From positions 36,376 through 100,375 of the forward strand of contig CAXHTE010000019.1 in the NCBI GenBank assembly GCA_964019415.1: DNA of 64,000 bases. The letters run 5' to 3'. Below, piece by piece: positions 2,720 through 63,422 of this stretch (positions within the stretch are counted from its first letter, which is position 1; each line of letters opens with the position of its first letter). Below the pieces are notes generated by a model. It was given only the letters and a program-made list of their open reading frames with translations. It had not been told where the DNA came from and did no database searches. The translations under genes were made by a program, and so were the position numbers. This DNA comes from Ianthella basta. Taxonomy: Eukaryota; Porifera; Demospongiae; Verongiida; Ianthellidae.

Positions 2720-2735
2720 GATTTCACACCAAATT

Positions 2736-10557: not shown

Positions 10558-11019
10558 TCAGCTCAGTGGGTGGCTGATGGTGGCAGATACACACTTTGAA
10601 TGTTGGCGGAGCTCCTTTCTGAGTCCTGTGCAGTGTTTCTCTCCGATACCAGCATACACCATAGCACCAAGGAGCACTTTCCAGGTGCAAGTCTTGCCGT
10701 GGTGACCCTCTGACCACATTATAAGCCCTTCTTGAACTGCCTCCTCCTCACTGAAAGGGTGCTTGCTGTAGCATGCTCTAACTGTTTCAGGAGCCAGTCC
10801 CACACCTTCGAGCACCGCATGTCCCTTCCCTGCCGACTTTCGACTCACATACGTACGGAAGAGAACGATATATTCCAAATTAGCTGCAGAAAAGGTAGAA
10901 GCAGTTTAGTGTGACTCTTGTGAGTACAAGAAGTGAACTGGCAGTGCATGCACCAACTCACCAATCACTGACTGAGACAAGATTGCATCATCTGTATTGA
11001 TCATGGTTGTAGGTCGATT
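10558..11019 (-). CDS. Distal death-domain module of unit B (two terminal exons)
   Basis: Two exons read in phase. Exon 10962-11019 (58 bases) enters in phase 0 and leaves in phase 1 and encodes a linker with DDAILSQSV. Exon 10558-10883 (326 bases) ends in TGA and encodes a death-domain-like fold: [15 protein letters not shown], then [19 protein letters not shown], then TWKVLLGAM. Lengths and phases equal those of exons 5 and 6 of gene B at 15723-15780 and 15330-15655, so this is a duplicated module. Its 5' exons are not resolved. Candidates upstream are 11674-11732 and a small exon at 13618-13730. It could be the end of a separate small adaptor gene or alternative terminal exons of gene B. 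Confidence 0.6.
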
Positions 11020-13739: not shown

Positions 13740-15329
13740 CATGCACACAACTAAATGCGGCAAATGTCCTTTGTGACTGCCAACGATGGCCTTATGGAGT
13801 TACAGGGCATCCATTTTGTCTCAATTTCCATGCGCGTTGCAACCATGGATTTACAGGTCCATTCTTTCTGGTCGGAAAATGAAACCCAATACATGCAAAA
13901 CAATCTGGCTGAATACGGAGGTAAAAAGGTCGACGAAGAATGCCGCGCTGGGGTATATATAGGCCAAATATAAGGTAATACAGTTTGGTTTTGTGACTTT
14001 ATACTCGGTGCACTACAGCGCTGTGTTAAGGTGCCATGCACTGTGGGAGTAGCTACTCCGCAAATAGTAAGGAGCGGTGCAAAGAAGGTGTTCAAGGCAG
14101 GATAGAGCCAATCAATTGCACAGAGGGACATATTATCTGTTATTATAGCTATGTGGTGCAGTCCAGAGTTAATTGGATTCTATCACTTCAAACTAGCCAT
14201 ATATTATATGGTCACAACAGAGATCGGCAAGCAAATATATAACCACGCGAGTGTACATGTACGTGTCAGGTCCGGTGCCTCCACAGTGTCTCCACCACGT
14301 ATAGCTAGGATTTCAGAGCAGTCACGGGCGAAGCTATGCAGGTATACCTATCATGCATTACATATCTTCTCGTCGAAGTACCCAATTGTTGCAAAGGATA
14401 ATCATTTGTACTAAGGCTCCTGCAGTCCAGTTGTAAGCTGCATACATGTTGCACTGGACAATTCTTGTCCTTTGTTCCATTAACTGGCCATGCAAAGTGT
14501 ACACGCACTCACCAACTGAGTCAGAAGCAATGACACTTATAGAATGGTATAAGTGAGTGTGAGCACGCTGTTATAGTAAGTAACCATATTGTGTAACTAA
14601 ATTTGATGAGTACATGAGGAGAAATACATGCAAACAGCAGCTACTGTGTAAGTACAAGGTCAGCTCTGGTAAACATAAACAAAAACATGCGTGTCATGCA
14701 AAAAACATGTAAACAAACTGTACTCTGTTCACACAGTCAACAGCTCAAATGTGATAAACACTATACTAAAGATACATAAGTGTGTGGTGTATGTGTGCAA
14801 TGCTCAGTTAGGTAGGGAGAAAGAAAATGAGAGGGGCACACCTGCATGTGGAATGGTCAGAGAGAATGGCTCCTTTGACACATAATGTTCCAATTGTACA
14901 CAGATACATATGTACAGAACAAACAAGAAGAGAAATTGTTCACTTCATAGCGCATTACATACGTGACCATGACAAAACACACAGTTGACTATGTTAAAGA
15001 TTAGGAGGCACTGTTGTATTGAATAGAAATGAGTTAACTGGTGATTGTCTTGGTAATGCCTATATATTCCTAAACCAGTCTCGATTAATGATACCTAACC
15101 CCCCCCCCCTTAAAGTGGATAAGCAAAGTTGGCCCACGATGGACACACACGTATAGGGTAAACTACATTACACTTCACAAAACAGTCAGAGAATGATATG
15201 TCTGTTACAAGTTAACTGCCATGAGGTACCACTGTGTACACAAACATAGCAAAATGTTGAAATAATACAAAATGGCTGTCACAGGATAAATCTCACCTTG
15301 TGTGTGCGTAGTGGAAGAATGGCTGTAGT
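13740..15329. other. Noncoding part of unit B between the two death-domain modules
   Basis: Nearly identical to about 54265-55927 in unit C. It holds a C run at about 15100-15108 and short frames on both strands without family resemblance. I see no gene. Confidence 0.4.
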
Positions 15330-15655
15330 TCAACTCAGTGGGTGGCTGGCAGGGGTAGACACATGTTTTGAATGTGGGCAGAGCTCCTTTCTGAGTCCTT
15401 CGCAGTGTTTCTCTCCGATACCAGCATGCTCCATGGCACCAAGGAGAACTTTCCAGGTGCAAGTCTTGCCGTGGTGACCCTCTGACCACGTTATAAGCCC
15501 TTCTTGGACTGCCTCCTCCTCACTGAAAGGGTGCTTGCCATAGCATGCTTTGACTGTCTCAGGATCTAGTCCCACACCCTCGAGCACCGCCCGTCCCTTC
15601 CCTGCCGACACTCGACTCACATACTTACGAAAGAGGATGGTACATTCCACATTAG
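15330..15655 (-). other. Gene B exon 6, second death domain and stop
   Basis: Terminal exon of 326 bases, entered in phase 1 after a tttctgcag acceptor. The predicted helices fit a death domain: [20 protein letters not shown], then [14 protein letters not shown], then [18 protein letters not shown]. It ends HPLS and TGA. A donor-like ACAAG/GTGAGA lies just past the stop. The same exon occurs nearly unchanged at 55928-56253 and, more diverged, at 10558-10883 and 50077-50402. Confidence 0.7.
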
Positions 15656-18600
15656 CTGCAGAAAGGCAGATGCACTCTAATTGAGTACAGGCAGGCAGTG
15701 AATTGGTAGTGCATCAACTCACTATTCACTGACTGGGACAGGATTGCATTGTCTAAATCAGTCTGGTTACCAGATTGAATCTAATAGCAAGTCACAAAGT
15801 GTCAATTGAATAATGCCTACACATACAGATATGTGACACATGTTGTACAGAACGTCTTCATCACATAACAGAGTATACATACCATTGTCCACATACCATA
15901 TGAGTTGAGATAACGCATACACTGCCATCCATCAGACATTTACTGAAATTAATGCATACTCACTGACTGCACATACTCCTTTCCTGCCTGAGATTGCAGT
16001 TCTGCTGTAATGTGATCAGTCACAACTTCTTTGTAATACATTCGAACTGCCTCCAACACAGTGGCCCATGTTCTGGGCATGTCACCTGTCCCAGGTGCAT
16101 TCTGTAGCCATGAATCAAACATTTGAGTGCAGCAATTCTGAGTATTGGCTGGGAACTCCTTGCAAATAGTACACAGTATGTCTGTGTTGATTCCACACTG
16201 CAGCCCCACTGGGAACCACTGAGCTACCATCCTGGGTACCACTAGTGCAGTGATCAGCTCATGAGTGGGGGCTTGTTGAAGGATGTCCAGAGCTGTGAAC
16301 ATGCAAAGCAGAAAATATTACTCTGTCATATCTCATTTGTTCTTTGTGGCTGAAACGTCTTGTGTGAGATTACTGTCTGCTATACAGCCTTTGCTCAGAA
16401 ATTGTCATTTATACCCATCACCTTATGTAGCAATGCACCTCTACATTGTTAGAAATGGAATCGTGCTGGATTTACTGAGCAAATTTTACTTTCATAACCC
16501 ATTACCAATGACATACTACAAAACGCTTAAACAAGTTGTGCAAATCAATCATTAAACTGGATACCTGCCTTTAGTGGAAGTTTGTTCTTACCTTGTACTC
16601 TGGTAGTCAGTGTTGCTTCATCTCTTGAATCAAATATACCATCACATGGACTAGCTTGAGGGAGAGGAGTCACAGTGCCACAGGAGCCTGCAGGCAATAT
16701 CGGAACAGAGACAGCACACAAGAAGTAGCTGTACGTATAATATAAATTTCCATGGACCCTCACATATTTTAGGAATGGCCCATGCAATGAGGATTTTTGT
16801 GATTTTCTTGGCCCTTACATATGTGATTCAGAAGTTATGTAAATGACTCCTTTCAAATACATCTTTAGCAGTAAAATACTAATCACATATTATATCTCAA
16901 TTGATGGTGAGATATGTGCATTTTACAGCTCACCTTTCAACTTCAAGTGGCTTTCACTTCCAAAAGCAGGACCTGGTTCAGGTATCTCTCTTACATGTTG
17001 ACCTTCAAGGACAGCCTGCAACAAGAGAGAAGGACCATGCTAAGGCTATCTCCTTACAGAACATCCATGCCATGAAGAAATGAAAGTCAGACAATGCTAT
17101 ATATGCAGCTGGTATGAGGGAACTTACAGGATGATTCATGCTGCTAAATAACACACTTTGCTCTAGGGAGACAAGAGACATCTGCATCATCTCCTTGCAG
17201 TGCGCACACAGCTCCTCCTCAGACACCACCAAGTGTGCATAATGGCTGTCAGTGTTAGCATGGCCTGCCTCTAAACAAGGCACACCCACAGAGAGCACTC
17301 CAGTGGTGTCCTCCACATTGTACAGCCTCTTGTAGGACTGAGCTAATCTAGTGAGAACCGCATCTCGGAGGGTGATGAAAGTGTGCTGACTAATCTTGGG
17401 TAGGTCACTGGAGACCACCATTTTGATGAAGCTGTTGGTCTCTGTCAACTCAACATAGTTGGTGACAACTCGGAAATATATGTAAGTTCTGCAAGTGAAC
17501 ATGGGTACAACTTCCCAGTTTGGGTTGTTGCCAAGAAGGTAGGTGATCGTAGCAGGAAACACACCACACGGGATGTAGTTCTTGTTCTCGAATGAAACCA
17601 AAAATGGTCCTTTCTGGCACCTCCTCTGAGGAGGATGCTCCCTACCAGTGGGGGGGAGTACAGAGGGAAGGAAGTACTCCTCGGCAGACAGTGTGGCTGC
17701 TTTAGTCGGTAGCTTTGCAGTAATGCCCAACTGCATTAAAAGGTGTAGAAGCCATTGTTTGTCCAGTCTGTGATCAATATCCAGTTCACTCAATGTATTG
17801 GCTGTCAAGACTCCTTCCATCTTCAACTTTCGTTGTGGTCCTCCTGGAATTCTCTGGAACTGAACATGGTACAGCTTTGAAATGTTGCAGTAGAGAAAGG
17901 ATGGGTCAATGAAGACCAGACAGGTGCACTGAGAGTCATCTCCTCTCAGGTGGTCTGCCTCACTGGGCAGTCCAGTGTGCTCATGGAAGAAGAGACCCAG
18001 GTCATGGAAGAACTGGACCATGGCAATGCACTCCTCCTGACTCTTGACAAATCCCTGATTCAAACACTGACAGAGAAGGTCACTGTAGACATAGTAAGGC
18101 TTCTCTTTACTCTGACTGTTGAGGAGAATCTGACAGAGCATCCATGTGATTGGAGTGTCATATTTAGCCTGAGGAGCTGTACAAGGTTTTGTTATTGTGT
18201 CTCTAAGGCATTTTAGCAGTTGAAGTTCTGAATCAGGAACATCATCTTGGTGGTACTGGCTATTGTCCATTGGGAAGAGTATCATCTCTTGGTCACCACA
18301 AGCAGAATTGCGTACAACATCATGAAAGAAAGGCTTTGATTTCAAAGCTTCCTCAAGAGTCTGATCAATATCAAATGGCACAGCATTAAGTGGTTCTGCA
18401 GATACACACTCAGCCATTTTATTTTTATGAGCCAGTTTATTTTTATGAGTGCCAACAAGGATGAGTCGGAGAAGAGGGCTGTGGCTGTCTTTGCACGTAA
18501 GCAAGTCACGCTTGTCTGCCATGGAGTGAATGCTAGTCAGTGAACGCACAATCAGCTCCAGGTTGGTGAAGGACGATTCTGAAGAGTACAGTGGTCCACC

Positions 18601-21600
18601 TGATTCCAATCTAATCTGGTCAGTAGGACGCTCAGTAAGTGGGTCACACATGTTGAACACTTGAAGATGAACAGTGGGGGTGCGTCTGTTGGTGAACACT
18701 GGAAGGATGTCATGAAATGCCAGCTGGCCCCCAGTGTCAATGAATTGGATAAGTTGTGAGTTACGAAAAGTGATGAACTGTAGTTGATCAGTGTCTTTCA
18801 ATAAATCTAGGATGCTTTCCTGAACTGGAGCCTTGTCCAGTGATTTCTCCACATCAGTCTGTATGGAAACTACTTCCTCAACAAGTCTTTCTTCCTGAGA
18901 CTGAATAGCTGGAGAAGTTGCAGGAATCTGGTGTGTGGATATCTCAGGATCTACTGAGGCCTTCTCCGGACTGCTTGTGGAGGAAATTGCCACACTCTTC
19001 TTCATTGAGAGGTGATCTCTGTCATTCTCAGATGGAGAGGCTTCATCACGGGGCATCAACAAAATGGGCTCATTATGAACCTGTTCAGAATCAGGGCGTA
19101 CAAAAGATTCTACAGAGTTACCTTCTCTCTTCCCGGCACTAACAACATCTTGCCTGTGAGTACCATTAGTCAAAATATCTTCACTGACTTTCGTAGTGCA
19201 CATGGACTGATCAAGTGACTGCAGTAATGACCAGAGTCCGCTTTCATCACTGACTACAGTCCATTCTGATCCAGACAGAAGCACACGGTCATTCACTGCA
19301 ATAATATCTGCTTTTGTGCACACTGGGGTGCTAGGACAGTTATCAGGAGGTCGTTGGCCAAGAATGACATGCTTTAGCCATGTTTTACCAACCCCTGGAG
19401 GTCCACTCACTATACATTTGGCAAGATGAAGCGGAACCACAGGGTTGTCTTCAATAACTTTCTGATACTGTGTCCTACAGATAGCCTCCAACTGCTGTGT
19501 CTGTTTGTAACAGGAGGGCGAGTCTGACTTGAGATGAAGGAGGCTCCCAACATGATCAGCCACTAAAGTGGAATCATCCAACTCTTCATGGTCCAAGAAT
19601 AGGTGCTGTTCCACTGCTGAGATGCCTTCTTTGCGCTCGACCCAAGCCTTGACACCTGCAATGGTAGCACCACTGTGGTATGGCATGGCAAGTACCCTGC
19701 CCTGAATGATCTTCACAGAAATGATCTTTCGAAGCACCAGAGTCCAATTTTGAATGTTGGACAATGATGATATGCAGGGGCAAAAGACAGGGTAGTTGGT
19801 ATCTTCTCCTTTAATGACATACCCTGAGCACAGGAGACACTGTTGTTCTGGAGGAATACCAAGTTGGTCCTGAATCTTACCTTTCACATCTTCAAACGTC
19901 TCATTAGCATCTACTGTGACTTTGATAGTACTTTGTGCTCCAGTCCGCTCATTAGTAGTCTTCACAGATATTTGTACACTATGCAGATGAAGGGTACAAC
20001 CTGCTGTGATGCCATTGTGGTCCAATGTAGTGCCATCGTCTTCAAGCGGATTGCCATCAAATGCTAGACATTGTACGTGAAGTGGGATGCCAGTCTTTGT
20101 GTGAATTTGGGCCTTCACGTCTCTAACAGTGTCGAATGGCTGTACACTCACAGTGGTGACAATCTTACCCTTGTCTGTACTAATGAGGACACACCCTACC
20201 AGCCCTATTTGCAGTGTGCTTTTATCCTGAATGTTATACTCAGACACTGTATGCCCATCTTCAAGTTGCCTTCCAGCAAAGATGAGTCGCTGCTGTTCTG
20301 GTGGGATGCCCTCTTCTTGAACTTCACCCTTCACATCCTCAATAGTGTCCCTAGGGTCTACCACCAAAGGGATTGGTTTGCCTGTCAAAGGACTAACAAA
20401 GATCCTCATACCACCAAGTACTAAATTGAGAGTTGATCCATTTTGAATGTTATGATGAGACAGTGTATGTACCAGTATACATTTACCAAAGGTGAGACGC
20501 TGCTGGTCTGGTGCGATTCCCTCCCTAACACAAATTTTGGACCTCACGCTCTCTATAGTATCACTGCATTCTACTCCAAGAGTGATTGTCTTGCCTGTCT
20601 CAGTCTTCACATAGATCTGCATAGCACCACATAGAGCTAGGTGGAGAGTAGATCTATTTTGTATATTGTAGTCAGAAAGCATGCATTCATCGTTAAGCTC
20701 CTTTCCAAAGAAGGTGAGACACTGATTGTTTACTGGGATGCCCTCCTTAACTTGAATTTTGACTTTCACCCTTGCAATACTGTCTTGGGACATCACTTGC
20801 AGAGTGGTGGTCTTGCCTGTTTGAGTCTTCACACAGATACACCATTGAAGTATTAAATGCAAGGTAGATTCTTTTTGTATGCAATAGTCAGACAGTGTAC
20901 GTCCATCCTCAAGCTCCCTCCCAGCAAAGATGAGGCGCTGCTGTTCTGGTGGGATTCCCTCCTTGTATTGAATTTTGGCCTTCACACTCCCAACACTGTC
21001 ACTGGGTACTATTTCCAGTGTGATTGTCATGCCTGTCAAGGTCTTCACAAAGATCTCCGTCCTCATTCCACACAGTTCACACAGTAAATCAAGAATATCT
21101 CTGTTGTGTATGTTGTAGTCTGACAGTGTATGTCCATCTTCAAGTCGCTTCCCAGCAAAAGTGAGACATTGCTGTACTGGTGAAAGTCCTGTCATGCACA
21201 CCAATTTGGCCTTCACTGTCTCCAGACTGTCACTTGGGCGGACTGCCAGAGGAACAGTCTTGTCTGATGAAGTCTTCACAAAGATAACCATACGAAATAA
21301 ATGCAAAGCAGAACCATTTAGTATGTCGTAGTGTGACAGTGTTCGACCATCCTCAAGTATCTCACCCAAAATGACAAGGTGCTGCTGCTCTAGTGGAATG
21401 CCCTCCCTGGAATAAATGAGGGCCTTCACATTCTCAATACTGCAACAAGATTCTACAACTAGAGTGATTGTCCTACCTTCCTCTGTTAGTACTTCGATTT
21501 CCGTCACGAGCAAGGTATGCACAAGTTGGACGGTGTCATGCTCCTTCATGTCATAGTTTGATAGATAAAGTCCATCTTCAAGTACATATGGACCACACAC

Positions 21601-23082
21601 AAGATTCTGCTGTTCTTGTGGAATACCCTTCCTCAGTTGAATATGGTACTTCACATCCTTAACCAATTCACTAGGAGAAACCACAAGAGGGACTGTCTCT
21701 CCTGATTCATGAACACTTACATTGATCAGCATATGATCACACGTCATGAGGACAGTACATCCATCTGAGACGTTGTACTCAAATAAAGTATGCCCATCCT
21801 CAAGCAGGTTCCCAGCATAAATAAAATACTTCAGATCTGATGGGATGTGCTCCAGGTACCGAATTTTGACCTTCACAATTTCAATACAGTCACTCGGTTT
21901 TACCTTCAGAGTGATTCTGCCTTTCACAGTTTTCACATAGATCTCCATACTGCCATATAATTGATATGCTAAATGGACAGTAGTTTCCTTCTGTATGTTA
22001 TAGTATGACAGTGTGTGCCCATCTTCAAGCTCTTTCCCAGCAAAGATGAGACGCTGATTCTCTACAGGCATGCCCTCCTTCTCTTGAATTTTAGTCTTCA
22101 CGTTCTTAATACTGTCACCAGATTCTACCTCCAGAGCAATTGACTTGCCTGTCATGGTCTTCACAAAGAGCTGCATACCGCCACACAGTCGAATAATTAA
22201 ATGGAGAGTAGATTCCAATTGTATGTTATAGTCAGACAATGTAAGTCCATTCTCAAGCTGCTTCCCAGCAAAGATGAGTCGCTGCTGGTCTGGTGGGATG
22301 CCTTCCTTGTCTTGAATTTTAGCCTTCACATATTCAATACTGTCACGGACTTCCACTTCCAGAGTGATTGTCTTGCCTGTCAGGGTCTTCACATAGACTT
22401 GTATACCACACAACAGTTCATGAAGCATTAGACGGGGAATAAATTCTCTCTGTATGTTGTACCCTGACAGTGTGCACCTATCCTCCAATGTCTTTCCAGC
22501 AAAGCTGAGAAAATGCTGATCTGGCGGGATGCTCTTCCTGGAGTGAATAAGGGCCTTTGCTTCCTCAATACTGCAACATGTTTCTACTTCTAGAGTGATT
22601 TCCCTGCTTTTCCTAGTCTCTACATGGACTTCTTTCACAAGCAGGGCGTGCACTAGCTGGATGGTGTCGTGCTCCTTTATGTCATAGTCTGATAAATCTT
22701 GTCCATCTTCAAGTACATATGAACCACACACAAGACTTTGCTCTTTTTGTGGAATACCCTTCCTGACTTGAATATGGTACTTCACATCCTTAACCAGTTC
22801 ACTAGGAGAAACCACCAGAGGGACAGTCTCTCCTGATTCATGAACACTTACATTGATTTGCATATGATCACATGCCATGAGGACAGTACATCCATCATCC
22901 ACACCATACTCAGATAAGGTATGCCTGTCTTTGAGCAGGTTACCAGCATAAATGAAACAAGTCTGTTCTGGTGGGATGTCTTCCTCGGCTTGTACCTTGG
23001 CCTTCACAACCTCAATATGGTCACTGGGTTCTACCTCTATTCTGATAACCTTGTCCTTCAGGCTCTTTACAAAGATCCACAT
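15330..23082 (-). CDS. Gene B: poly-ubiquitin-like / Roc-COR GTPase / death-domain protein
   Basis: Six-exon model, about 2281 residues: 17128-23082, 16934-17015, 16592-16687, 15964-16292, 15723-15780, 15330-15655. All donors are GTGAG or GTAAG and the phases fit (0,1,1,0,1). The start is MWIFVK at 23082, conserved in A and C; the frame also stays open to 23121. Residues 1-1187 are 16 ubiquitin-like repeats. A P-loop GPPGVGKT is at 1227-1234, a DTGGQ switch motif at 1449-1453 and a G4-like THKNK at 1545-1549. A COR-like region follows ([21 protein letters not shown]) to the end of exon 1. Exons 2-3 are a linker, exon 4 a first death domain ([22 protein letters not shown]) and exon 6 a second ([19 protein letters not shown]). 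It is probably a cytosolic signalling switch in the Roco/NLR style. The activity of the GTPase is uncertain because the G4 aspartate is Asn here. Confidence 0.8.
15964..16292 (-). other. Gene B exon 4, first death domain
   Basis: A 329-base exon, phase 1 in and phase 0 out, encoding [19 protein letters not shown], then [11 protein letters not shown], then a WLQ motif and [20 protein letters not shown], and ending EYVQS at a GTGAGT donor. The WxxVGxxxG pattern, the central WLQ and the TWATVLEAV helix are death-domain features. Gene C has lost the second half of this exon. Confidence 0.65.
17128..18282 (-). other. COR-like region of gene B
   Basis: About 385 residues after the GTPase. The winged-helix-like start ([20 protein letters not shown]) is followed by [15 protein letters not shown] and [20 protein letters not shown], the typical COR order of a short helix, a D-L-G-L/F strand and an I/V-D-P-x-W/F-L motif. 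Gene C has the same order with near-identical residues. Assignment rests on motif resemblance to Roco proteins. Confidence 0.6.
18283..19521 (-). other. P-loop GTPase (Roc-like) region of gene B
   Basis: Walker A GPPGVGKT is followed by 214 residues before DTGGQ. Most of that gap is a Ser/Glu/Asp-rich, low-complexity linker that would be disordered. After DTGGQ comes a [12 protein letters not shown] segment, then [12 protein letters not shown], a G4-type strand and motif. The THKNK has Asn where gene C has Asp (THKDK). A short duplication follows (LAHKNK right after THKNK). Confidence 0.65.
19522..23082 (-). repeat. Array of 16 ubiquitin-like repeats in gene B
   Basis: Sixteen units of 68-84 residues, mostly 71-77. 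Repeat 4 is near ubiquitin ([38 protein letters not shown]). Repeats 1-2 and 6-7 share a divergent type ending in CDH and LLV. Repeats 14-16 are the most diverged and are conserved as a set in gene C. Most junctions replace the LRLRGG tail (for example LCGG, LYGS, LCGMR, LALCGA), so processing into single ubiquitins is unlikely. Some units keep the positions of K48 and K63 and the I44 patch residues (RLIFAG). Confidence 0.85.
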
Positions 23083-23869
23083 GATTCCACACCAAATTCT
23101 GTGTGACAATAAAATTGTCATTGAATAGGCATTTCAGAGGCAACTACTAAGTAACCAGCTACTTTAAAATCATAAACATAATAGTCCAGAACACGCAGTT
23201 TTGATGTGTATAAAACACCACACATGCACAATCCATGTGAAGGTCACACCTAATGATGTCCACATGGCTTGGCTTACTGACAATGTTTCACTGCATGGCA
23301 GTCATTAGCTCAAAACAGTTTACAACATCATGCTCGGAGCAGTTTCAGGAACTACCATCATGTTTACACTGGCACCCAGTTCCAGGCCCACACGACGCGG
23401 TTTCCAGAACCATGCAAAGAAGCCATGCTGGCCCGCGTTACAGTGCTGATATGATACAAGTTATTGTGCGTATCGGGCCATTTTGTTACTGTCTCCACAC
23501 TTTGATCGGTTCATTCATCTCTTTGTTCATCCAAGTAGCTAAAGGTGGACGGTATATCGGTATTCTTAGTTATTTTCAGTTATTTTTAGTATTAACACGA
23601 TACCGAATATTATCGGTTCCTTGTTAAGAGATACCGAAATACCGACATATTTCGGTATTGGTCAATATGTGCTACAGCTGCAACTAATACTTTACAAATA
23701 GGAGTACAAGCTCACAGGCATGTAAGCGTTAGGCCTAGAGTAAAATCCTTTCGTCTCCTACGTACGCAGGTTTTAGTATCCTCACTTGTCGCGTCGTCGT
23801 TCTTCCCTGCTCCTCCTCAAAGCGGAGGAAATCATCTATGAAATGGGCATCCCTCGCGATGGCATAGTC

Positions 23870-26087
23870 TCTTAGTGTCTGCTGACATCCGTCGGTTCAG
23901 GGGACAAGTGTGCTTCGAGCTGGAGCGCAATTACAATCCTCCATTTTCTTTCACATTCGAGAATACGGACTACACAGTGACGTATCCTGAGGTATTCGAG
24001 CGAATTTCTCGCAATTTTTTAGTGATGGCGAAAGAGCAGATTGTCAGAAAGAGCAATGCAAAATCACTCGTGTGGGACCACTTTGGCTTCAAGGCAGGAG
24101 AGGATGGGAAGGCTGTGGATGATGGGAAGCCTATATGTCTCCATTGCAAGCGCAGTGTTGTAGCTCGGTGGGCTAACACTTTAAATTTGTCTTCTCATTT
24201 GCGATCAGCACACCCCATTCAATATGAGCTAGCTCATTGTGGGAAGAAGAAGGCATCAGCTAAAAGCACTGCGGGCCAATCTACAAAGCCTGGTGGCAGC
24301 CAGCCGACACTTGCTGAGGCTTTCTCGCAATTACAGAAATACGATCGAAAGAGCAAACAATGGCAGCAGCTGACAGATTCTGTCACATACTGTTTGGCAA
24401 AAGACATGCTCCGAATCTATTCAGTTGAAAAGCCAGGTTTCAAACAAATGACGGCCACTTTCGACAAGCAGTACACCCTCCCTGGACATAAGTACTTTTC
24501 CAACACGGCCATCCCAGCGTTTTACACCCGCACCAGAGAGCAAGTCATGCAGGAGGTTGCACAGGCAGACTTCTTCTCTGCAACAACTGACCTATGGTCA
24601 AGTGAAGGAATGAAATCGTACATGAGCTATACGGTTCATTTCATCATGATCATCAATGAATGGGAGCTCACAACTCGGTGCCTCAAGACACTGTTTCTTC
24701 CTGCAGATCACACTGGAAGAACATAGCCAATGCTATGCTTGCAACATTGGAGTCATGGAGACTGGACCAAGACAAGCAGGTCTGCTTGACAACAGACAGT
24801 GGTGCCAACATCATCAATGCTGCTTCCAGACTTAAGTGGCAGAGACTGTCATGTTTTGGCCACAACCTGCATCTATATAGCAGTCACAAAAGCCATCGAC
24901 AGTGATGTTCGATGCACTCGAGCACTTGGGCTATCAAGGAAGATTGCAAGTGCATTCTCCAATTCATGGAAGAAGCGCCTAGCCAAAGCACAGATGGAGA
25001 CTGGACCAAGACAAGCAGGTCTGCTTGACAACAGACAGTGGTGCCAACATCATCAATGCTGCTTCCAGACTCAAGTGGCAGAGACTGTCATGTTTTGGCC
25101 ACAACCTGCATCTATATAGCAGTCACAAAAGCCATCGACAGTGATGTTCGATGCACTCGAGCACTTGGGCTATCGAGGAAGATTGCAAGTGCATTCTCCA
25201 ATTCATGGAAGAAGCGCCTAGCCAAAGCACAGATGGAGCACAGTCTCCCTAGCATTCTCTTGTTGCAGATTGCCAAACAAGATGGGGCTCTGCACACAAA
25301 ATAGTGTCTCGAATTCTGGAGCAAGAAACTGCTATTCGTGCTGTCTTAAGCGCTGACCGCATGAAATCTCAATTGATTCCATCATGGCAGGATATTGAAG
25401 TGCTTGAGGCAATCAACAAAGCACTGACACCTGTAGCAGACCTCACTGACCTTCTATCTGGTGAAAGGTATGTCTCCATTTCTGCTGTGAAGCCAGTGCT
25501 CAGCCACATGTCTACTGAGGCTCTTGCTGAGAGTGATGACAATACACCCCCTCACCAAGGACATCAAGCACCGTATCCTAACTGACATAGAATCGCGGTA
25601 TTTGCATCCACATGTTGATTTACTCTTGGATATTGCATCTTTCCTGGATCCACGATTCAAAACTGAACACATTTGCCATGAGAATGTGGACTCCATCAAG
25701 GCACGGCTGCAGGATGAAGGGATGGAACTAGCTGGTTGCATATCAGTTGCAGAGTCAGTGGAAGACCAAGCAGAACCTGCTGAGACTGACAATGAGCCAC
25801 CACCAAAAAAGAAAAAGCTTGCTACGATCCTAAAGAAGAAGAACAGGACAACTTCAAGCACATCACGTGGAGATCAAATGGAAAAAGAGACGGAGAGCTA
25901 TCTCAGTGCACAAGATCTAGATGCAGAAGACAGCCCTCTTCTATGGTGGAAGGCAGAAGCTCTTCGTTACCCCATATTGGCCAAGCTAGCGAAAACGTAC
26001 TTGGCAATATGCGCCACAAGCTCAGCTTCAGAGCGAGTTTTCAGTGCTTCTGGAAAGATTGTGACACCACTAAGAAGCTTGCTCTAG
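23870..26087 (+). pseudogene. hAT transposase with BED finger, broken
   Basis: The frame opens near 23870 with its first ATG at 24025. A BED-type finger (CLHC, then SSHLRSAHP) sits near 24135-24215. The first catalytic Asp is in SATTDLWSS near 24575. The second block is LTTDSGANIINA and LSCFGHNLHL near 24785-24870. The C-terminal dimerisation motif LLWWKAEALRYPILAKLAKT through SASERVFSASG ends at 26087. The gene is disrupted: a stop at 24726, a 239-base tandem duplication (24755-24993 and 24994-25232) that is not a multiple of three, and further frame changes near 25300 and 25550. It cannot make an intact transposase. Confidence 0.8.
24755..25232. repeat. 239-base tandem duplication inside the hAT gene
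   Basis: Two almost identical copies, 24755-24993 and 24994-25232, beginning atggagactggaccaagaca. It duplicates the block around the second catalytic motif. Confidence 0.95.
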
Positions 26088-31899: not shown

Positions 31900-32027
31900 C
31901 CAAGAGCGATTTTCTTTACGTATTTGATGTGCTGCATAAATATCACCAATGATGGTTTCTGTGCGTAGTTATGCTCAATATCATGCAATGAACCATTTTC
32001 TTCAATAAAATACTGTTTACAGAGAAT

Positions 32028-33890
32028 ATGGCAAGCAGGGTAACAATTGATGAAGTTCTGAAGCAAATCAGTGATGAACAGTGGTGTGAATCTGATGATG
32101 ACCTGCCTGATGGTGAGGAAGATTGGAGCCTTGAGGCATTCTTCCAGAAAGAGGACCCACGTGCACTTGACAAAGCAGGAGCGGGTAGAGATGATGATGA
32201 TGAAGAAACTTGTGAGACTACACCTCCTCTCCCTTTGCAAGAGCCTACCACACCTACACCACTCGATCACTCAGTAGACAGCATCCACATAATCCCCCAC
32301 TGCAAGAGCCTATTACCACCTCCACACTACTCAATCGCTCAGTGGACAGCACCCTAGTCAACGCTCAGGACTTACCCTTGCCTCCAATGTCAACATCTGA
32401 ATCCTTTTCACTGCTGATGAGGTGCCCATGTACTCAGCAACTCACAGGTCCATTTTCACTCCCATTCCTAGGCCAAAGATTGCATTAGATGAAGACAGCC
32501 ATCCATACGAACACTTTTGCTGAATCTGGGGAAGTAACATGTTCAAGTTGATTGCTGAGCAAACAAACCTGTACACAGAGCAGAAGGGTACACCATCCTG
32601 GGAACAGTTGACAGAAGATGAAATGAAGGCTTTCTTTGGCATCCAGATGGGATTAGTCCGCTGGCCATCACTTCGAGACTACTGGAATACCAATCCACTC
32701 ATTGGCACTCCAGGGATCATCAGGGGGGATGAGTCGCAACAGGTTTAGGTCCATCCTGAGTAATTTGCACTTGAATGACAATGCAAAAATGCCTCAACCT
32801 GGAGATTCCAATCTTGATAAGCTATACAAGGTGAAGCCAGTACTTCCCATAATTCGGGCGAACAGCCAAGCCGCTCATCAACCACACTAAGGGGTAGCAG
32901 TGGACGAAGCCACGATTCTTTTCAAGGGAAGAAGCTCGATGTGGCAGTACATGCCAAAGAAGCCCATCAAATGGGAGTACAAGTGTTGGTGTTTGTGTGA
33001 TGCTTGAAATGGCTACATGTACAACCTCAATATCTACCAAGGGGCCAGTGGTACCCTCGATGAAGCAGGCCTTGAAGCAACAATCGGATAGAGGATGGTG
33101 GAGCCATTTTATGACCAGTGCTACCAGGTTTACATGGATAACTTTTTCCCACCAGAGCACTGGCCAACAAGTTGCGGGAGAGAGACATCCTGATGATCAG
33201 CACTATCAGGACAAACAGAAGAGGATGGCCACAGGAAATGAAGGGGCTAAAGAAGCTGAAGAAGGAGATGGAGCAGGAAGAGCAGGTCCAAGGTGGTAGA
33301 TGAAGTGGACTGTGTGGTGTGGAAGGACAAAAGACTGGTTACCTTGGTGAATACCATTACAGAACCATCGAATATGTCTTTAGTCCTCAGAAGGAACAAG
33401 GATGGTTCCAGGTCTAGAGTGTCCTGCCCTGAGAGCGTCCGCTGCTACAGTGCGTACATGGAAGGGGTAGATCTGTTCGATTCACGAAGGAAGACCTATT
33501 CTTGTAGCTGAAAGAGTCGAAAGTGGCGAATACAGCTCTACTGCTTTCTACTGGACAGCGCTGTGACAAACGCATGTTTGGTACAAGGAAAGTCACCAAA
33601 ACTCAGCCATCACCATGAAGGACTTCATGCTGAGGATCTGTGAGCACACTGGGCTCACAAACAACTGCCACATACGCTCAAGCATCCAAGATCCTCCTCC
33701 ACCAACCCAATTGTGTGACCATCAATTTCCTGAGTGCCTGGACAGGCCCCTCCAGTGCAAGGTTTGCATGCAGCGACGATGGACAAGGTCTTGCTACAAG
33801 TCTTGTCGTCCAGTACAACCTGTTTCTTTCTGCCGGGTGGACTGCTTCAGGATTTACCACACAAGGATCAATTTTAGACAACTGTCGTGA
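32028..33890 (+). pseudogene. piggyBac transposase, multiply frameshifted
   Basis: The N-terminal acidic part starts at ATG 32028 (SDDDLPDGEEDWSLEAFF). The core shows FFGIQMGLVRWPSLRDYW, then a frame change and MSRNRFRSILSNLHLND. The catalytic blocks are visible: VAVDEATILFKGR near 32900, VYMDNFFPP near 33130, MEGVDLFD near 33460. The C-terminal Cys-rich finger (CKVCMQRRWTRSCYKSC, CFRIYHT) ends at 33890. Stops or frame changes occur near 32357, 32745, 32890, 33000, 33090, 33180-33250 and 33511. The element is non-autonomous now. Confidence 0.85.
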
Positions 33891-34733: not shown

Positions 34734-35421
34734 TAGACAGCAGTCCTCCCTTTAATCATGGATAATATATTCATAGGGAGAGGGTATATACGATATATTC
34801 ATAGGGAGGGGGTGCATGCCTAGACCAGGGTAGTCTCATTCCCAGAAGGTGGTCTGGCACATTTGCTCAATATTCTGATTAATTGAAAACTTTCTGTATG
34901 TTGCATCACATGAATGCATGGATGGGGCGCTTGACAGAATCACCTCAAGGGGCAGTAACAGACATTGAGAAACTGTACCAGGTCACATTTTAAAATGTGG
35001 AAGCCCTTAAATTGGGTGCAAATTGTTCTCATTTGATAGAATACTCGAATACGACTCACGTAGATGAGCGAATGAAGCTGTTACATTGCATATTGCAAGA
35101 CATGGAGGCGCTTACCAAGATGTTGGCAAGCACCCCAAGGGCGGTATCAAAACATTGAGTGACAACAGCATGGGGACTGGGGGGGACTGCCCTGACGTGT
35201 GTCTCGTTCAGATCCTCCTCCCAGCGGTACCTGTCTGCCCAATTTTAGATGGGGGAAGAAACGGGGACACCTTCACAGCACTTTGTCATTGCGCCGGAGC
35301 AGGAAAGCTAGCCGAAGCCGAGCTTTCCTGCTATAGTACAATCAGCACATCGTGAGAAAGCCTCCAGGGAAGCAGAAACTGTGAAAGCAACACTCACAAT
35401 TGCAAGGGTCAGCAGAATGCA

Positions 35422-55927: not shown

Positions 55928-58900
55928 TCAACTCAGTGGGTGGCTGGCAGGGGTAGACACACGTTTTGAATGTGGGCAGAGCTCCTTTCTGAGTCCTTCG
56001 CAGTGTTTCTCTCCGATACCAGCATGCTCCATGGCACCAAGGAGAACTTTCCAGGTGCAAGTCTTGCCGTGGTGACCCTCTGACCACGTTATAAGCCCTT
56101 CTTGGACTGCCTCCTCCTCACTGAAAGGGTGCTTGCCATAGCATGCTTTGACTGTCTCAGGATCTAGTCCCACACCCTCGAGCACCGCCCGTCCCTTCCC
56201 TGCCGACACTCGACTCACATACTTACGAAAGAGGATGGTACATTCCACATTAGCTGCAGAAAGGCAGATGCACTCTAATTCAGTACAGGCAGGCAGTGAA
56301 TTGGTAGTGCATCAACTCACTATTCACTGACTGGGACAGGATTGCATTGTCTAAATCAGTCTGGTTACCAGATTGAATGTTCTGGGCATGTCACCTGTCC
56401 CAGGAACGTTCTGTAGCCACGATTCAAACATTCGACTGCAGCAACTCTGAGTATTGCCAGGGAACTCCTTGCAAATAATACGCAGTATGTCTGTACTGAT
56501 TCCGCACTGCAAACCAACTGGTGTCCACCACTGATCAGTCACCTTGGGCACCACCAGTGCAGTTACCAGCGCATGGGTGGGGAGCTGTTGAAGAATGTCC
56601 AGAGCTGTGAACATGCAAAGCAGAAAATGTCACTCCGTCAAATCTCATTCGTTCTCCAAAAATGGTTGACATGTATATAACACAGAGGGCATACTAGACA
56701 ATGTAGCTATGGTGTATGCATAGGTACTGTAGTCAACAATGAGTGATCATGAAGTGCACACCGTAACATGACAAAGCATAGCTGGTGACAGACACGCTTT
56801 CTACAACTGACTGACAATGGCTGCTTCACACACACTTGTTTCGCTCACATGCACACTCACACCACACCCACACACCCCCACACCCCACATACACACCCAC
56901 ACACACATACATAATTAACGTTGAGGTTTCGTTACATTTAGACGGATCGAGAGACTGTATACAACTAAACAAACAGAACTGACAGAAAGCACTAATTATT
57001 GTACATACTACCATTATGAGTCCATTTATGGCTGTGTAATTCACCAAATTGGCCAACACATTACTCATTATGTACAACAGACAAGGTCTTTTGTGGCTGA
57101 AACGTCTTGTGTGTGGTTACTGTCTGCTGTACATCCTTGCTCGGAAGTTCTCATTCATACCCATCACATTATGTAGCAAAGAACCTCTACATTGTTAGAA
57201 ATGGAATTGCGCTGGATTTACTGAGCAAATTTTACTTTCACAACCCATTACCAGTGACAATTTTGGCAATACTACAGAACTCTTAAACAAGTTGTGTAAA
57301 TCAATCATTAAACTGGATACCTGCCTTTAGTGGAAGTTTGTTCTTACCTTGTACTCTGGTAGTCACTGTTTCTTCATCTCTTGAATCTAGTATGCCATCA
57401 CATGGACTAGCTTGAGGGACAGAAGTCACAGTGCCACAGGAGCCTGCAGGCAATATCGGAACAGAGACAGCACACAAGAAGTAGCTGTACGTATAATATA
57501 AATTTCCATGGACCCTCACATATTTCAGGAATGGCCCATGCAATGAGGATTTTTGTGATTTTCTTGGCCCTTACATATGTGATTCAGAAGTTATGTAAAC
57601 GACTCCTTCCACACACAAAGTATAAACATAGGTACTTGGATGGCAGTAGATGGCTTAGTATCCTCACAAGTTTGCCCACTACTGGTGCTATTCAGGACCA
57701 TTGCTGATTAAGTTAACACCATTCATTGATGCAACATTCATAAAACTCAGCTGCATAGAAGTATGCTAAATGAACAGCGCATCCACTTATTTGCATCCTA
57801 AAATATCTTTGAGTAGTAAAGTACGAATCACATTTACCATATCTCGATTGATGGTGAGATATGTGCATTTTACAACTCACCTTTCAACTTCAATTGTCTT
57901 TCACTTCCAAAAGCAGGGCCTGGCTCAGGTATCTCTCCTACATGTTGACCTTCAAGGACAGCCTGCAACAAGAGAGAAGGACCATGCTAAGGCTATCTCC
58001 TCACAGAACATCCATGCCATGAAGAAATGAAGGTCAGATATATAGTTATGCAGCGGGTATGAGGGAACTTACAGGATGATTCATGCTGCTGAATATCGCA
58101 CTCTGCTCTGGGGAAACAACAGACATCTGCATCATCTCCTTGCAGTACACACACAGCTCCTCCTCAGACACAACCAGGTGTGCATAATGGCTGTCAGTGT
58201 TAGCATGGCTTGCCTCAGGGCATGGCACACCCACAGAGAGCACTCCAGTGGTGTCCTCCACATCATACAGCCTCTCGTAAGATTGAGCAAGACTAATCAG
58301 GACTGCATCTCGAAGGGCAATGAAGGTGTGCTGACTAATCTTGGGTAGGTCACTGGAGACCACTATTTTAATGAAGCTGCTGGTCTCAGTCAGCTCAACA
58401 TAGTTAGTGACAACTCTGAAATACATGTAAGTTCTGCATGTAAACATGGGTACAACTTCCCAGTTTGGGTTGTTGTCAAGGAGGTAGGTGATGACAGCAG
58501 GAAACACACCACATGGAATGTAGTTCTTATTTACAAAGGAAACCAAAAGTGGTCCTTTCTGGCATCTCCGCTGACAAGGGCGATCTCTACCAGTAGGGGG
58601 GAGTACTGAGGGAAGGAAATACTCCTCGGCAGACCATGTGGCCGCTTTAGTTGGTAGCCTGGCAGTAATGCCCAACTTCATTAAAAGGTGTAGAAGCCAC
58701 TGTTTGTCCAATCTGTGATCAATGTCCAGTTCACTCAATGTATTAGCTGTCAAGACTCCTTCCATCTTCAACTTTCGTCGTGGTCCTCCTGGAATTCTCT
58801 GGAACTGAACATGGTACAGCTTTGAAATGTTGTGGTACAGAAAGGATGGATCAATGAAGACCAGACAGGTACACTGGGAGTCGTCTCCCCTCAGGTGGCC

Positions 58901-61900
58901 TGCTTCACTGGGCAGTCCACTGTGCTCATGGAAGAACAGACCCAGGTCATGGAAGAATTGGACCATGGCAATGCACTCCCCCTGACTCTTGACAAATCCC
59001 TGACTCAGGCACTGAGAGAGTAGGTCTCTGTAAACATAGAAAGGTTTCTCTTTACCTTGGCTGTTGAGGAGCATCTGACAGAGCATCCAGGTGATTGGAG
59101 TGTCATGTTTAGCCTGAGGAGCTGTACAAGGCTCTGATATTAAGCCTCTAAGGCACTCCAGCAGTTGAAGTTCTGATTCTGGAACAACAGATTGGCAGTA
59201 CTGGCAACTGTCCATTGGGAAGAGTATCATCTCTTGGCCACCACATGTAGAATTGCGTACAACATCATGAAAGAAAGGCTTTGATTTCAGAGCTTCCTCC
59301 AGAGTCTGATCAATACCACATAGAGCAGTGTTAACTGGATCAGAAGATGCATAGTCAGCCAACAGTTTATCCTTGTGAGTGCCTACAAGGATGAGTCGGA
59401 GCAGAGGGCTGTGGCTGTCTAGACTAGGAAGCATGTTACGCTTGTCTGCCATGGAGTGAATGCTAGTCAGGGAACGCACAATCAGCTCAAGATTGGTGAA
59501 GGACGATTCTGAAGAGTACAGTAGTCCACCTGCTTCCAATCTAATCTGGTCAGTAGGGCGCTCAGTAAGGGGGTCACACATGTTGAACACCTGAAGGTGA
59601 ACAGTGGGGGTGCGTCTGTTGGTGAACACTGGAAGGATGTCATGAAATGCCAGCTGGCCACCAGTGTCAATGAACTGGATAAATTGTGAGTTATGAAAAG
59701 CAATGAATTGTAGTTGATCATTGTCTTTCAACAAATCTAGGATCTTTTGCTGAACTAGAACCTCAGCCAGTGAGTGTGTCTCCACAGCAGTCTGTATAGA
59801 AACTACTTTCTCAGCTTTTACAGTGAATCTCTCTTCCTGAGACTCTATGGCTGGGGAATTCACAGGTATCTGGTGGGAGGGTATTTCAGAATCTACTGAG
59901 GTCTTCTCCAGACTGCTTGTGGAGGAAATTACCTTACTCTTCTCCATTGAGAGGTGATCCCCGTCATCCTGAGATAAAGAGGCTTTGTCACACGGCATCA
60001 ACAAAATGGGCTCATCATGAGCCTGGTCAGAATCAGGGTCTTTAAAAGCTTCTACAGGGGAGTTAGCATCTCTCTTCCTGGCACTACCAACATCTTGCCT
60101 TTGAGTGGTATTAGTCAGAATATCTCCACTGACTTTAGTAATGGACATGGACTGATCGAGTGACTGGAGTAATGACCAGAGTCCGCTTTCATCACTGACT
60201 ACAGTCCACTCTGATCCAGACAGAAGCACACGGTCATTCACTGCAATAATGTCTGCTTTGGTGCACACTGGGGTGCTAGGACTGTTGCCAGGAGGTCGTT
60301 GGCCAAGAATGACATGTTTTAGCCATGTTTTACCAACCCCTGGAGGTCCACTGACTATACACTTGGCAAGGTGAAGGGGAACCACAGGGTTGTCTTCAAC
60401 AGCCTTCTGATACTGTGTCCTACAGATAGCCTCCAACTGCTGCTTCTGCTTGTAATAGGAAGGTGAGTCTGATTTGAGATAAAGGAGGCTCTCAACATGA
60501 TTCCTTACTAAAGTGGAATCACCCAACTCTTCATGGTCCAAGAACAGGTGCTGTTCATCTGCTGGGATACCTTCCTGGTATCTCAAGAATCTCTTTACAT
60601 CTGCAATCATACAACCACTGTGGTATGGCACAGCAATAATCTTGCCCTGGATGGTCTTCACTAAAATCATCTTACGAAGCAACAGAGTCCAATTATCTTG
60701 AAAATGAAGCATTAAGGATCTATTGGTATCAAAGAGACTGTAGGCATTACTTTTCTTTTCAATGAGATACCCAGAGCAAATGAGACACTGCTGTTCTACA
60801 GGAATACCCAGCCGGTTCATTACCTTAATTTTCACATCTCCAAATGTCTCATTAGCATCCACTGTGACTTTGATAGTACTTTGTGTTCCAGTCTGCACAT
60901 TAATAGTCTTCACAAATATTTCTACACCATGCAGATGAAGTGTACAACCCGCTGTGATGCCATAGTGGTCCAGTGTAGTGCTATCATCCTCCAGCCGATT
61001 GTCCTCAAATTGAAGATATTGTAAGGCAAGTGGTACACCAGTCTTGCTCTGAATTTTGGTCTTCACATCTCTGACAGTGTCCATGGGCCGTACACTCACA
61101 GTGGTGATAGTCTTGCCCTTCTTGGTGGTCACAAGAACACACCCTACTGGCACCAATTGCAGTATGCTTCCAATCTGTATGTTATACTCAGATAGAGTAT
61201 GCCCTTCTTGAAGCTGCTTCCCAGCAAAGACAAGGCACTGTTGGTCTACTGGGATGCCCCCCTTGTCATGAATATTGGCCTTCACATTCTCAATGAGGTC
61301 ACTGGGTTCAACTTCCAGAGACAATACCATGCCTGCTAGGGACATTACAAATATTTGCTTATTTGCATTCCAAGCATGTGGTAGAAATACTAAAATGAGA
61401 AGAGATTCCTTTTGTATATTATAGTCTGACAGTGTACGTTCATCTTCAAGTGTCTCCTCGGCAAAGATGAGGCACTGCTGGTCTGGTGGGATGCCCTCCT
61501 TGTCTTGAACTTTAATCTTCACATTCCCAATACTGTCTCTGGGTTCTACTTCCAGAATGAATGTCTTGCCTGTCAAGGTCTTCACAAAGATATGCATGCT
61601 ATTGCCACCACGCAATTGATATACTAAATAGAGAGTAGATTCCTTCTGTATGTTATAGTCTAACAGTGTACGTCCATCCTCAAGCTGTTTTCTAGCAAAG
61701 ATGAGGCGCTGCTCGTCTGGTGGGATGCCCTCTTTGTTTCGAACTTTAATCTTCACATTCTCAATACTGTCTATGGGTTCTACTTCCAGAGTGATTGTCT
61801 TGCCTGTCAAGGTCTTCACAAAGATCTGCATGCTATCATGCAATCGAAGTGCTAAATGGAGAGTAGATTCCTTCTTTATGTTATAGTCTAACAGTGTACG

Positions 61901-63406
61901 TCCATCCTCAAGCTGTTTTCCAGCAAAGATGAGGCGCTGCTGGTCTGGTGGGATGCCCTCCTTGTCTTGAACTTTAATCTTCACATTCCCAATACTGTCT
62001 CTGGGTTCTACTTCCAGAGTGATTGTCTTGCCTGTCAAGGTCTTCACAAAGATCTGCATGCCATCACGCAATCGAAGTATTAAATGGAGAGTAGATTCCT
62101 TCTTTATGTTATAGTCTAACAGTGTACGTCCATCCTCAAGCTGTCTCCCAGCAAAGATGAGGCGCTGCTGGACTGGTGAGACGCCCTCCTTGTCTTGAAT
62201 TTTGAACTTCACTCTCTGAATACTGTCACTGGGTTCTACGTCCAGAGTGATTGTCTTGCCTATCAAGGTCTTCACAAAGATCTGCATGCCATCACGCCAT
62301 CGAAGTACTACATGGAGAGTAGATTCCTTCTGTATGCTGTAGTCTGACAGTGAACGTCCATCATCAAGTTGTCTCCCAGCAAAGATGAGACACTGTTGTC
62401 TTTCAAGAGTGCCCTCCATGTATTGAATTTTAGCCTTCACAGTCTCAATACTGTCACTGGGTTGTACATCCAGAGTGATTGTCTTGCCTGTCAAGGTCTT
62501 CACAAAGATCTTCATACCATTACACAGCTTACACAATAGGTTGAGGGTATCTCCGCTGTGTATGTTGTACTCTGACAGTGTATGCCCATCTACAAGTTGC
62601 TTCCCAGCAAAAGTAAGACATTGCTCCACTGGTGAGAGTCCTGTCCTGTTTACTAGTTTGGCTTTCACTGTTTCAACTCTGTCACTTTGGTTGACTTTCA
62701 GAGTGATAGCGTTATCTGGTGAACTCTTCACAAAAATTGTATCAACTACTGATACATGTACAGTAGAGCCATATTTTATGTTGTAGTCTGACAGTGTATG
62801 TCCATCCTCAAGCGTCTCCCCATTAAAGCTCAGACACTGCTGGTCTGGTGGGATGCCCTCACTGGAATGAATGAGGGCCTTCACATTCTCAATACTGCAA
62901 CAGGCTTCTACTTCCAGGGTGATTTTCTTGTCATTGCCAAAGTGTACAGTGATTTTCATTAAACACAATATAAGCACTAGCTGGATGGTGTCATACTTCT
63001 TAATGCCATGGTCTGATAAATCCTGCCCATCTTCAAGTACATATGGACCACACACAAGACTCTGGTGTTTTCGTGGAATGCCCTTCCTGAGCTGAATATG
63101 GTACTTCACATCCTTAACTGATTCAGTACGAGAAACCACAAGAGGGACTGTCTCTCCTGATTCATGAACACTTACATTGATTAGCATATGATCACATGCC
63201 ATGAGAACAGTGCACCCATCACGCACACTGTACTCAGATAAGGTACGCCCATCTTTGATCAGGTTCCCAGCATAAATGAAATACTTCAGTTCTGGTGGGA
63301 TGTCTCCCACAGCTTGTACCTTATCCTTCACAACCTGAATACGGTCACTGGGCTCTACTTCTATTCGGATAACTTTGTCCTTCTGAATCTTCACAAAGAT
63401 CCACAT
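55928..63406 (-). CDS. Gene C: poly-ubiquitin-like / Roc-COR GTPase / death-domain protein with exon deletion
   Basis: Exons by homology to gene B: 58073-63406 (1778 codons), 57881-57962, 57348-57443, a fused exon 56321-56604, and 55928-56253. Thirteen ubiquitin-like repeats (residues 1-980) precede GPPGVGKT (1020-1027), DTGGQ (1247-1251), THKDK (1343-1347) and the COR-like region. Upstream of ATG 63406 is an in-frame TAG, fixing the start. A 289-base deletion relative to B (joining 56378 to 56379) removes the second half of the first death domain, its donor and an intron. Reading into the fused exon hits TAG at 56351-56353 (about 1921 residues, no complete death domain). Skipping it joins exon 3 to exon 55928-56253 in phase (about 1945 residues, one death domain). 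Confidence 0.75.
56321..56604 (-). other. Fused, truncated death-domain exon of gene C
   Basis: Starts [19 protein letters not shown] and keeps VGLQCGI and [14 protein letters not shown], then runs into what was the end of exon 5, out of frame, with a stop after TRLI. The old exon 5 donor GTGAGT at 56320 is intact. Confidence 0.75.
56615..57347 (-). other. Gene C intron 3
   Basis: Longer than the gene B equivalent (16293-16591) by about 440 bases. The extra sequence at about 56655-57085 includes CA/CCCACA-rich stretches (56830-56910). No element ends recognised. Confidence 0.45.
58073..60466 (-). other. GTPase and COR-like regions of gene C
   Basis: Same domain order as gene B: P-loop, about 220-residue Ser/Glu-rich linker, [17 protein letters not shown] with the G4 Asp intact, and the COR-like block with [12 protein letters not shown] and VFIDPSFLY. 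The linker is the most diverged part relative to B. Confidence 0.65.
60467..63406 (-). repeat. Array of 13 ubiquitin-like repeats in gene C
   Basis: Repeats 5-9 are close to ubiquitin ([36 protein letters not shown]), and 6-8 are more alike to each other than to the rest, indicating recent unit duplication. Junctions read WRDG, LRDG, LHDS, LRGGNS and PHAWNANK rather than LRLRGG. Repeats 10-13 correspond to 13-16 of gene B. Confidence 0.85.
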
Positions 63407-63422
63407 GATTTCACCCTAGACA

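Follow-up and report, generated by a model that had tools for sequence, protein, structure and literature searches.

Can one animal gene encode a chain of ubiquitin-like folds, a GTPase switch of the Roc-COR type and a pair of death domains? The question is raised by a locus of the sponge Ianthella basta, on the minus strand of a 64,000-nucleotide stretch of DNA (hereafter the window), which corresponds to positions 36376–100375 of contig C34 in an assembly of 209 Mb and 96 contigs. The computed gene model, read from an ATG at position 23082 of the window, predicts a protein of 2281 residues in which 16 ubiquitin-like repeats precede a Roc G domain, a COR domain and two death-type domains, here called DD1 and DD2 (Table 1). 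The predicted protein may represent a type of intracellular alarm protein that has not been described before.

The gene model begins in an open frame (17005–23133) of 2042 codons from stop to stop. The part from the ATG to a GTAAGT donor at 17128 (exon A) counts exactly 1985 codons, as stated in the preliminary description of the locus, which had been made from the sequence alone. Five exons, B to F, follow: all five introns are bounded by GT-AG, the phases are compatible and the sole stop is the last codon, which confirms the in-phase downstream exons reported in that description. A donor is also present after the end of exon A in 9/9 paralogues (GTAAG in eight, GTGAG in one). Immediately 5' of the ATG lies an acceptor-like sequence, which leaves room for a further upstream exon.

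The ubiquitin-like array is the most clearly recognised part. Pfam ubiquitin (PF00240) exceeded its cut-off in exon A with 861 bits (E 1.4e-266) over 16 stretches, and phmmer, for which the query was ubiquitin from a canonical polyubiquitin gene of this genome (on contig C3, with five repeats seen), also gave 16 repeats, the number counted before. Repeats 4, 10 and 5 are the closest to this ubiquitin (64, 57 and 53 of 76 residues identical) and retain I44; in the others, identity goes from 19/69 up to 48/71. Gly-Gly ends are found in 2/16 repeats, whereas a polyubiquitin precursor has them at every repeat for processing; thus, the chain should not be cut into monomers. Among 161 repeats from the fetched copies of the ubiquitin-Roco family, the ubiquitin residue is kept at L8 in 45%, I44 in 52%, V70 in 58%, K48 in 42% and K63 in 33%, and at K27, which is buried in ubiquitin, in 94%. 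Mean entropy was 0.87 bits for the fold core versus 2.20 bits for the I44-patch positions, and 849 repeats from public relatives behaved alike (0.94 and 2.42 bits). The ratio of nonsynonymous to synonymous substitution rates (Ka/Ks, by simple Nei-Gojobori counts between the window gene and its paralogues) was below 1 in 57 of 58 per-repeat comparisons with four paralogues and 1.09 in the remaining one; positive selection, sought in the array by this repeat-wise comparison, gave no signal. These values point to folds that are under constraint while their surfaces have diverged; the ubiquitin-binding surface is preserved in single repeats and not in the array as a whole. Since the core is kept, the surfaces are diverged and Ka/Ks is below 1, a binding array is a better match than a simple replica of a ubiquitin chain.

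The reading that we prefer has about even chances: if expressed, the window gene would produce a large, probably cytosolic signalling protein made of a ubiquitin-like array, a Roc-COR switch and two death-type domains. The array would be its N-terminal binding part, with partners held by diverged, mostly non-cleavable ubiquitin folds; partner binding or release would change the dimer and nucleotide state of Roc-COR; the death domains would thereby be brought together and nucleate a death-domain assembly, with a cell-death or immune response as the output. Of this picture, the domains and their order, the conserved splice signals, the selective constraint, the expansion of the family and the single ubiquitin-bearing clade are observed, whereas expression, location, switching, dimerisation, partners and output are inferred. 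In a bacterial Roco protein, Roc-COR is described as dimerising chiefly via COR (PMC6337361).

Two other readings concern what the array does. It could be, by analogy, a diversified recognition or decoy surface that imitates what ubiquitin ligases, deubiquitinases or ubiquitin-binding effectors of microbes act upon; damage to this surface, or its capture, would release the Roc-COR-death part, and plant NLRs use integrated decoys. The variation in array length, 13–18 repeats among the eight cluster genes with the array in one long frame, is coherent with this, as are the kept core with its variable I44 patch and the tandem gene arrays with a recently homogenised block (see below), which resemble an immune receptor family. 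However, the repeats show no positive selection on average, and a surface more variable than the core is expected in any repeat protein; we consider this reading possible, although unlikely. The preliminary description had instead proposed a ubiquitin-chain mimic wired to a death output. This is partly supported: the architecture agrees with the death-type output, but the mimicry is still a conjecture, as the I44-patch residues, K48, K63 and the Gly-Gly ends are often lost, with the fold core retained. In its strict form, a linear uncleavable chain would recruit host ubiquitin readers to the death assembly in cis, while ubiquitin chains are known to aid death-fold assembly in trans, as polyubiquitin does with the CARDs of RIG-I and MDA5. 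The near-ubiquitin repeats 4, 5 and 10 and the rarity of Gly-Gly, which would make a head-to-tail chain resistant to cutting, speak for it; conversely, at least one of L8, I44, V70, K48 and K63 is missing from most repeats, and the sequences of the array members are far more varied than a generic mimic would require. A strict mimic is thus quite unlikely.

The second part of the protein has the order of a Roco protein, with the Roc G domain directly followed by COR. The P-loop and the THKN strand noticed previously were both located in the alignment, where G3 is also present; the P-loop positions G54, P55, P56, G59, K60 and T61 are invariant in 9/9 rows. The Roc profile matched LRRK2, and the AlphaFold model, a check that the preliminary description had suggested, superposes on LRRK2, LRRK1 and Roco (the VIA-align rows being a mere re-ranking of Foldseek matches). 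With single sequences as queries, Pfam and the PDB yielded at best weak matches to Roc, COR and Death, and a first family profile was weak against the PDB (best E 0.037, LRRK2 at E 0.3). COR-A exceeded the Pfam cut-off in the distant relatives P0089, P0091 and P0108. Profile and predicted fold together support the Roc-COR identity, including the COR-like block described after Roc, and Ka/Ks against 9/9 paralogues is 0.26–0.50 in Roc and 0.17–0.31 in COR. The G4 motif carries Asp in 116/118 of the sequences with the motif and Asn in the window copy and in P0100, which is distantly related and lacks ubiquitin repeats; the window copy is the sole ubiquitin-bearing member compared that has lost this Asp. 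Because of this change, its predicted GTPase may be weak or impaired.

Two death domains had been described at the C-terminus, and the two cases differ in strength. The six-helix death fold was found for DD1, which supports its assignment as a death domain on predicted-fold evidence; its relatives P0118 and P0119 reached 16.6 and 17.8 bits with Pfam Death, versus a cut-off of 22.6, and a profile built from five of the family's own DD1 copies matched no PDB chain. DD2 is probably a death-type domain, by bridging relatives: Pfam Death matched 0/11 DD2 members, and DD2 is 28.6% identical over 70 residues to the Pfam-passing Death exon of a paralogue. As Pfam is weak or absent, the names COR and death domain are drawn from family profiles, structure models and bridging relatives. 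Ka/Ks was 0.26–0.63 for DD1 (4/4 paralogues) and 0.19–0.55 for DD2 in 5/9 paralogues, while the other four comparisons were saturated or showed no synonymous change. All 10 of 10 cluster genes contain DD2 or a diverged form of it. Two extra DD2 exons on the minus strand (10558..10883, with intact acceptor and stop, and 50077–50403, also with acceptor and stop), 4.4 and 5.5 kb downstream of the window gene and its second copy, are possible alternative last exons. Genome-wide, DD1-type exons (695 candidates, 150 scored) and DD2-type exons (431 candidates, 150 scored) are spread over many contigs, a very large expansion; among the matches listed outside the ubiquitin-Roco clusters, identity to the domains of the window gene is 29–51% for DD1 and 48–72% for DD2.

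The window gene is a member of a family. The genome search identified 13 loci joining ubiquitin repeats to a Roc-COR-type GTPase unit: four on C34, six on C22 (645–791 kb), one on C8, one on C19 and one on C22 at 3.1 Mb, ten of the 13 lying in two tandem arrays. The frame is split in two of them (window 1–2779 with C34 further left, and C22 761–767 kb). At least 44 further loci carry a related GTPase unit (32–39% identity), a lower bound for these plain Roco loci, as scoring covered 57 of 303 candidates. The plain Roco loci L032, L033 and L034 showed no ubiquitin repeat in any frame; of the long open frames (2374–2678 amino acids) at four plain Roco loci, which had looked like larger fusions, those of L032 and L034 run into masked N and were set aside. 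At three of the four plain Roco loci listed on contig C12 (near 809, 876 and 908 kb) a DD1-type exon is located 2.6–2.7 kb further downstream in the same orientation; a death-type part after Roc-COR hence also occurs outside the ubiquitin family. A tree was built from 116 of 137 sequences (the 21 dropped had too little Roc-COR; root on P0101, P0105 and P0110). In it, the 87 ubiquitin-bearing or own-cluster sequences fall in one 90-tip clade with support 1.0, whose other three tips are proteins without a detected ubiquitin repeat. Since the ubiquitin-bearing members form one clade, the fusion probably arose once; for some members of the clade, other assemblies of the same species are the probable source. 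Another 13 public proteins (P0072–P0084; 39–45% identity, 1–11 repeats in predicted frames) make up a second ubiquitin-Roco clade, which is more distant.

Do the death-type exons belong to the same gene? Exon B with its splice signals is present in 4/4 other genes of the closest subfamily and exon C in 2/4, one of them partial; exon E is matched in 8/9 other cluster genes, three of the matches spanning just 25–35 bases. The stop comes immediately after DD2 in 8/9 full-length DD2 copies. Moreover, in P0121 (locus L035 on contig C9, 2113–6405, minus strand) a single frame, open over 1431 codons, combines ankyrin repeats and a Roc-COR-like part with a nonapeptide repeat rich in proline and a DD2-type domain that shares 68% identity with DD2. 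A same-strand death-type exon lies downstream at 13/13 ubiquitin-Roco loci. It passes the Pfam Death cut-off at the C19 and C8 loci and falls just below it at the C22 3.1 Mb locus (21.6 versus 22.6 bits). In a neighbour control on 329 of 450 listed matches, those on contigs with a Roco locus, such an exon was found within 10 kb downstream at 10/13 ubiquitin-Roco loci versus 4/44 plain Roco loci among the matches listed, and upstream at 0/13 and 1/44; at the three ubiquitin-Roco loci without a listed neighbour, the death-type exons come from direct DNA comparison. Because of the shared exons B, C and E, the stop after DD2, the single frame of P0121 and this contrast between loci, Roc-COR and the C-terminal death-type domains are most probably encoded in one gene. 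On contig C7, a DD2 exon was also observed downstream, on the same strand, of a frame resembling P0121 by eye.

Several results weigh against the reading of a single array, Roc-COR and death signalling protein. When each segment is compared with profiles, as the preliminary description had recommended, ubiquitin exceeds the Pfam cut-off, while Roc, COR-A and Death stay under it in the window copy: COR-A reaches 18.3 versus 35.3 bits, Roc is not listed for this copy (it is in 2/9 members, best E 0.19), and neither death exon matches Pfam at E<=10. The proximity of a death exon to a Roco gene is weak evidence, since DD1- and DD2-type exons are very common in the genome, and for this reason it was dropped as decisive proof. 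In P0121, Roc and COR-B are below the Pfam cut-offs, the family-profile match having 70% probability and E 4e-5, and the frame may contain an unspliced intron ahead of DD2. Finally, no clear constraint emerges in exon B (Ka/Ks 0.36, 0.41, 0.86 and 1.03 over 25–27 codons) or in exon C (0.85 over 31 codons). The abundance of death-type exons and the weak constraint on exons B and C would agree with two adjacent genes: one of the ubiquitin-Roco type, whose end would be near exon A, and a small adaptor gene with two death domains, made of exons D to F, which could start at an in-frame ATG (MFTALD) just 5' of the exon D acceptor. However, the intervening exons with fitting phases and splice signals, found also in paralogues, the position of the stop, the P0121 frame, the rarity of death-type exons at plain Roco loci and the three diverged paralogues with a terminal death-type exon, two of them above the Pfam cut-off, make two genes very unlikely.

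The window holds a second copy of the gene, in which Pfam marks 12 ubiquitin stretches and a deletion has cut DD1 short, so that the DD1 letters abut exon E. A 678-bp block (15103–15780 and 55701–56378), spanning exons E and F of both copies, is 99.3% identical, while the blocks flanking it are 81–96% identical; this block is best read, from the identity values, as the trace of a gene conversion or a duplication that recently affected the end with the death exons. Positions 1–2779 (minus strand) hold the ubiquitin part of a third copy, in a split frame, whose GTPase part lies further left on C34, beyond the window. Remains of a hAT-type transposon (23842–26087, plus strand; BED zinc finger and hAT dimerisation domain) start about 0.8 kb upstream of the ATG. 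Frames at 31992–33511 and 35356–36243 (plus strand) resemble piggyBac or non-LTR remnants by eye, and Pfam gave no match on three suspected piggyBac or non-LTR frames.

Table 1. Parts of the window gene and of its second copy (positions in the window).
Feature	Position	Strand	Evidence
Exon A, part 1: 16 ubiquitin-like repeats, start codon at 23082	19552..23082	-	Pfam ubiquitin, phmmer
Roc-type G domain, including a disordered insert (~110 residues)	18154..19440	-	motifs, LRRK2 profile match, AlphaFold model
G1 / P-loop GPPGVGKT	19381..19404	-	alignment
G4 motif, THKN (Asp to Asn)	18439..18450	-	motif comparison
COR domain, up to the GTAAGT donor that ends exon A	17128..18153	-	Pfam (below cut-off), profile, model
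Exon B, 27 codons + 1 base	16934..17015	-	GT-AG; present in paralogues
Exon C	16592..16687	-	GT-AG; present in some paralogues
Exon D, death domain 1 (DD1)	15964..16292	-	
Exon E, 19 codons + 1 base	15723..15780	-	GT-AG; paralogue matches
Exon F, death-type domain 2 (DD2) and TGA stop	15330..15655	-	DD2 in cluster genes
Second copy, exon A frame: 12 Pfam ubiquitin stretches, Roc-COR	58046..63415	-	
Second copy, exons B to F, DD1 cut short	55928..57962	-	

It is very doubtful that the window gene is in decay, a paralogue devoid of GTPase function that gene conversion with its neighbours maintains: the G4 Asn, absent from the other ubiquitin-bearing sequences compared, the two broken neighbours with split frames and the nearby hAT element would agree with it, but not 2042 codons without a stop, nor Ka/Ks values well below 1 in Roc and COR.

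Among known systems, DAPK1 carries ankyrin repeats ahead of Roc. Like DAPK1, the window gene has a repeat array, Roc-COR and a C-terminal death-type part placed after COR; it differs in having 16 ubiquitin-like repeats and no ankyrin, and two death-type domains. The DAPK1 group of Roco proteins is described as metazoan and marked by an extra death domain (PMC6337361). The presence of ankyrin, Roc-COR-like and death-type parts in the single frame of P0121 indicates a DAPK1-like base plan, which is a known one, since the DAPK1 group already has Roc-COR and a death domain; the new element is the ubiquitin array in the repeat position. Neither kinase nor ankyrin had a Pfam match in exon A, which ubiquitin-like repeats occupy as far as Roc (upstream exons were not searched for kinase), and the window gene is not placed as a DAPK1 member. 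The earlier statement that no well-described system has this order therefore stands for the whole order, as open-access titles and abstracts gave no description of ubiquitin array, Roc, COR and death, whereas Roc-COR-death is the order already described for DAPK1 (PMC6337361).

Compared with LRRK1, LRRK2 and the prokaryotic Roco proteins, the window gene adds the death-type domains, and no Pfam match to LRR, kinase or WD40 was found in exon A. The nearest named proteins are from the sponge Dysidea avara, whose Roco proteins P0091, P0104 and P0108 have a homologous Roc-COR unit (22–24% identity); in these and in the plain Roco loci L032–L034, ankyrin, kinase or nothing recognised sits in place of the ubiquitin array. 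Polyubiquitin precursors share the head-to-tail ubiquitin folds, and differ from the window gene in its few Gly-Gly ends and its fusion to Roc-COR. Multi-copy death-domain families are also described in sponges for NLRs and for the Amphimedon TRADD-N proteins (PMC12909245, PMC8195603), with 128 DEATH genes reported in D. avara (PMC12909245) and 357 NCOA6-clade TRADD-N proteins, in architectures mostly starting with death-like domains, in Amphimedon (PMC8195603). Unlike the window gene, those are NACHT-LRR or TRADD-N proteins: exon A and the death exons have no Pfam match to NACHT or LRR, and TRADD-N is absent among their Pfam matches, no profile aimed at TRADD-N having been run. Since the architecture-figure legend of the D. 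avara NLR study (2026) lists the abbreviations UBQ and COR (PMC12909245), some gene models of sponge NLRs seem to include ubiquitin and COR parts.

A broader idea, offered tentatively and as fairly unlikely, is that these loci form a multigene family of intracellular immune receptors, in which tandem genes reshuffle and diversify ubiquitin-repeat arrays on a conserved Roc-COR-death chassis, sensing microbial attackers of the ubiquitin system. In the predicted polypeptide, three subjects usually studied apart, namely ubiquitin chains, the LRRK2/DAPK1-type GTPase and death-domain assembly, are joined together, in what is probably an early-branching animal lineage. Arrays encoded in cis would permit direct tests of ubiquitin folds as a receptor surface, and the family offers tests of how Roc-COR may control a death-domain output, which would be relevant to DAPK1 too.

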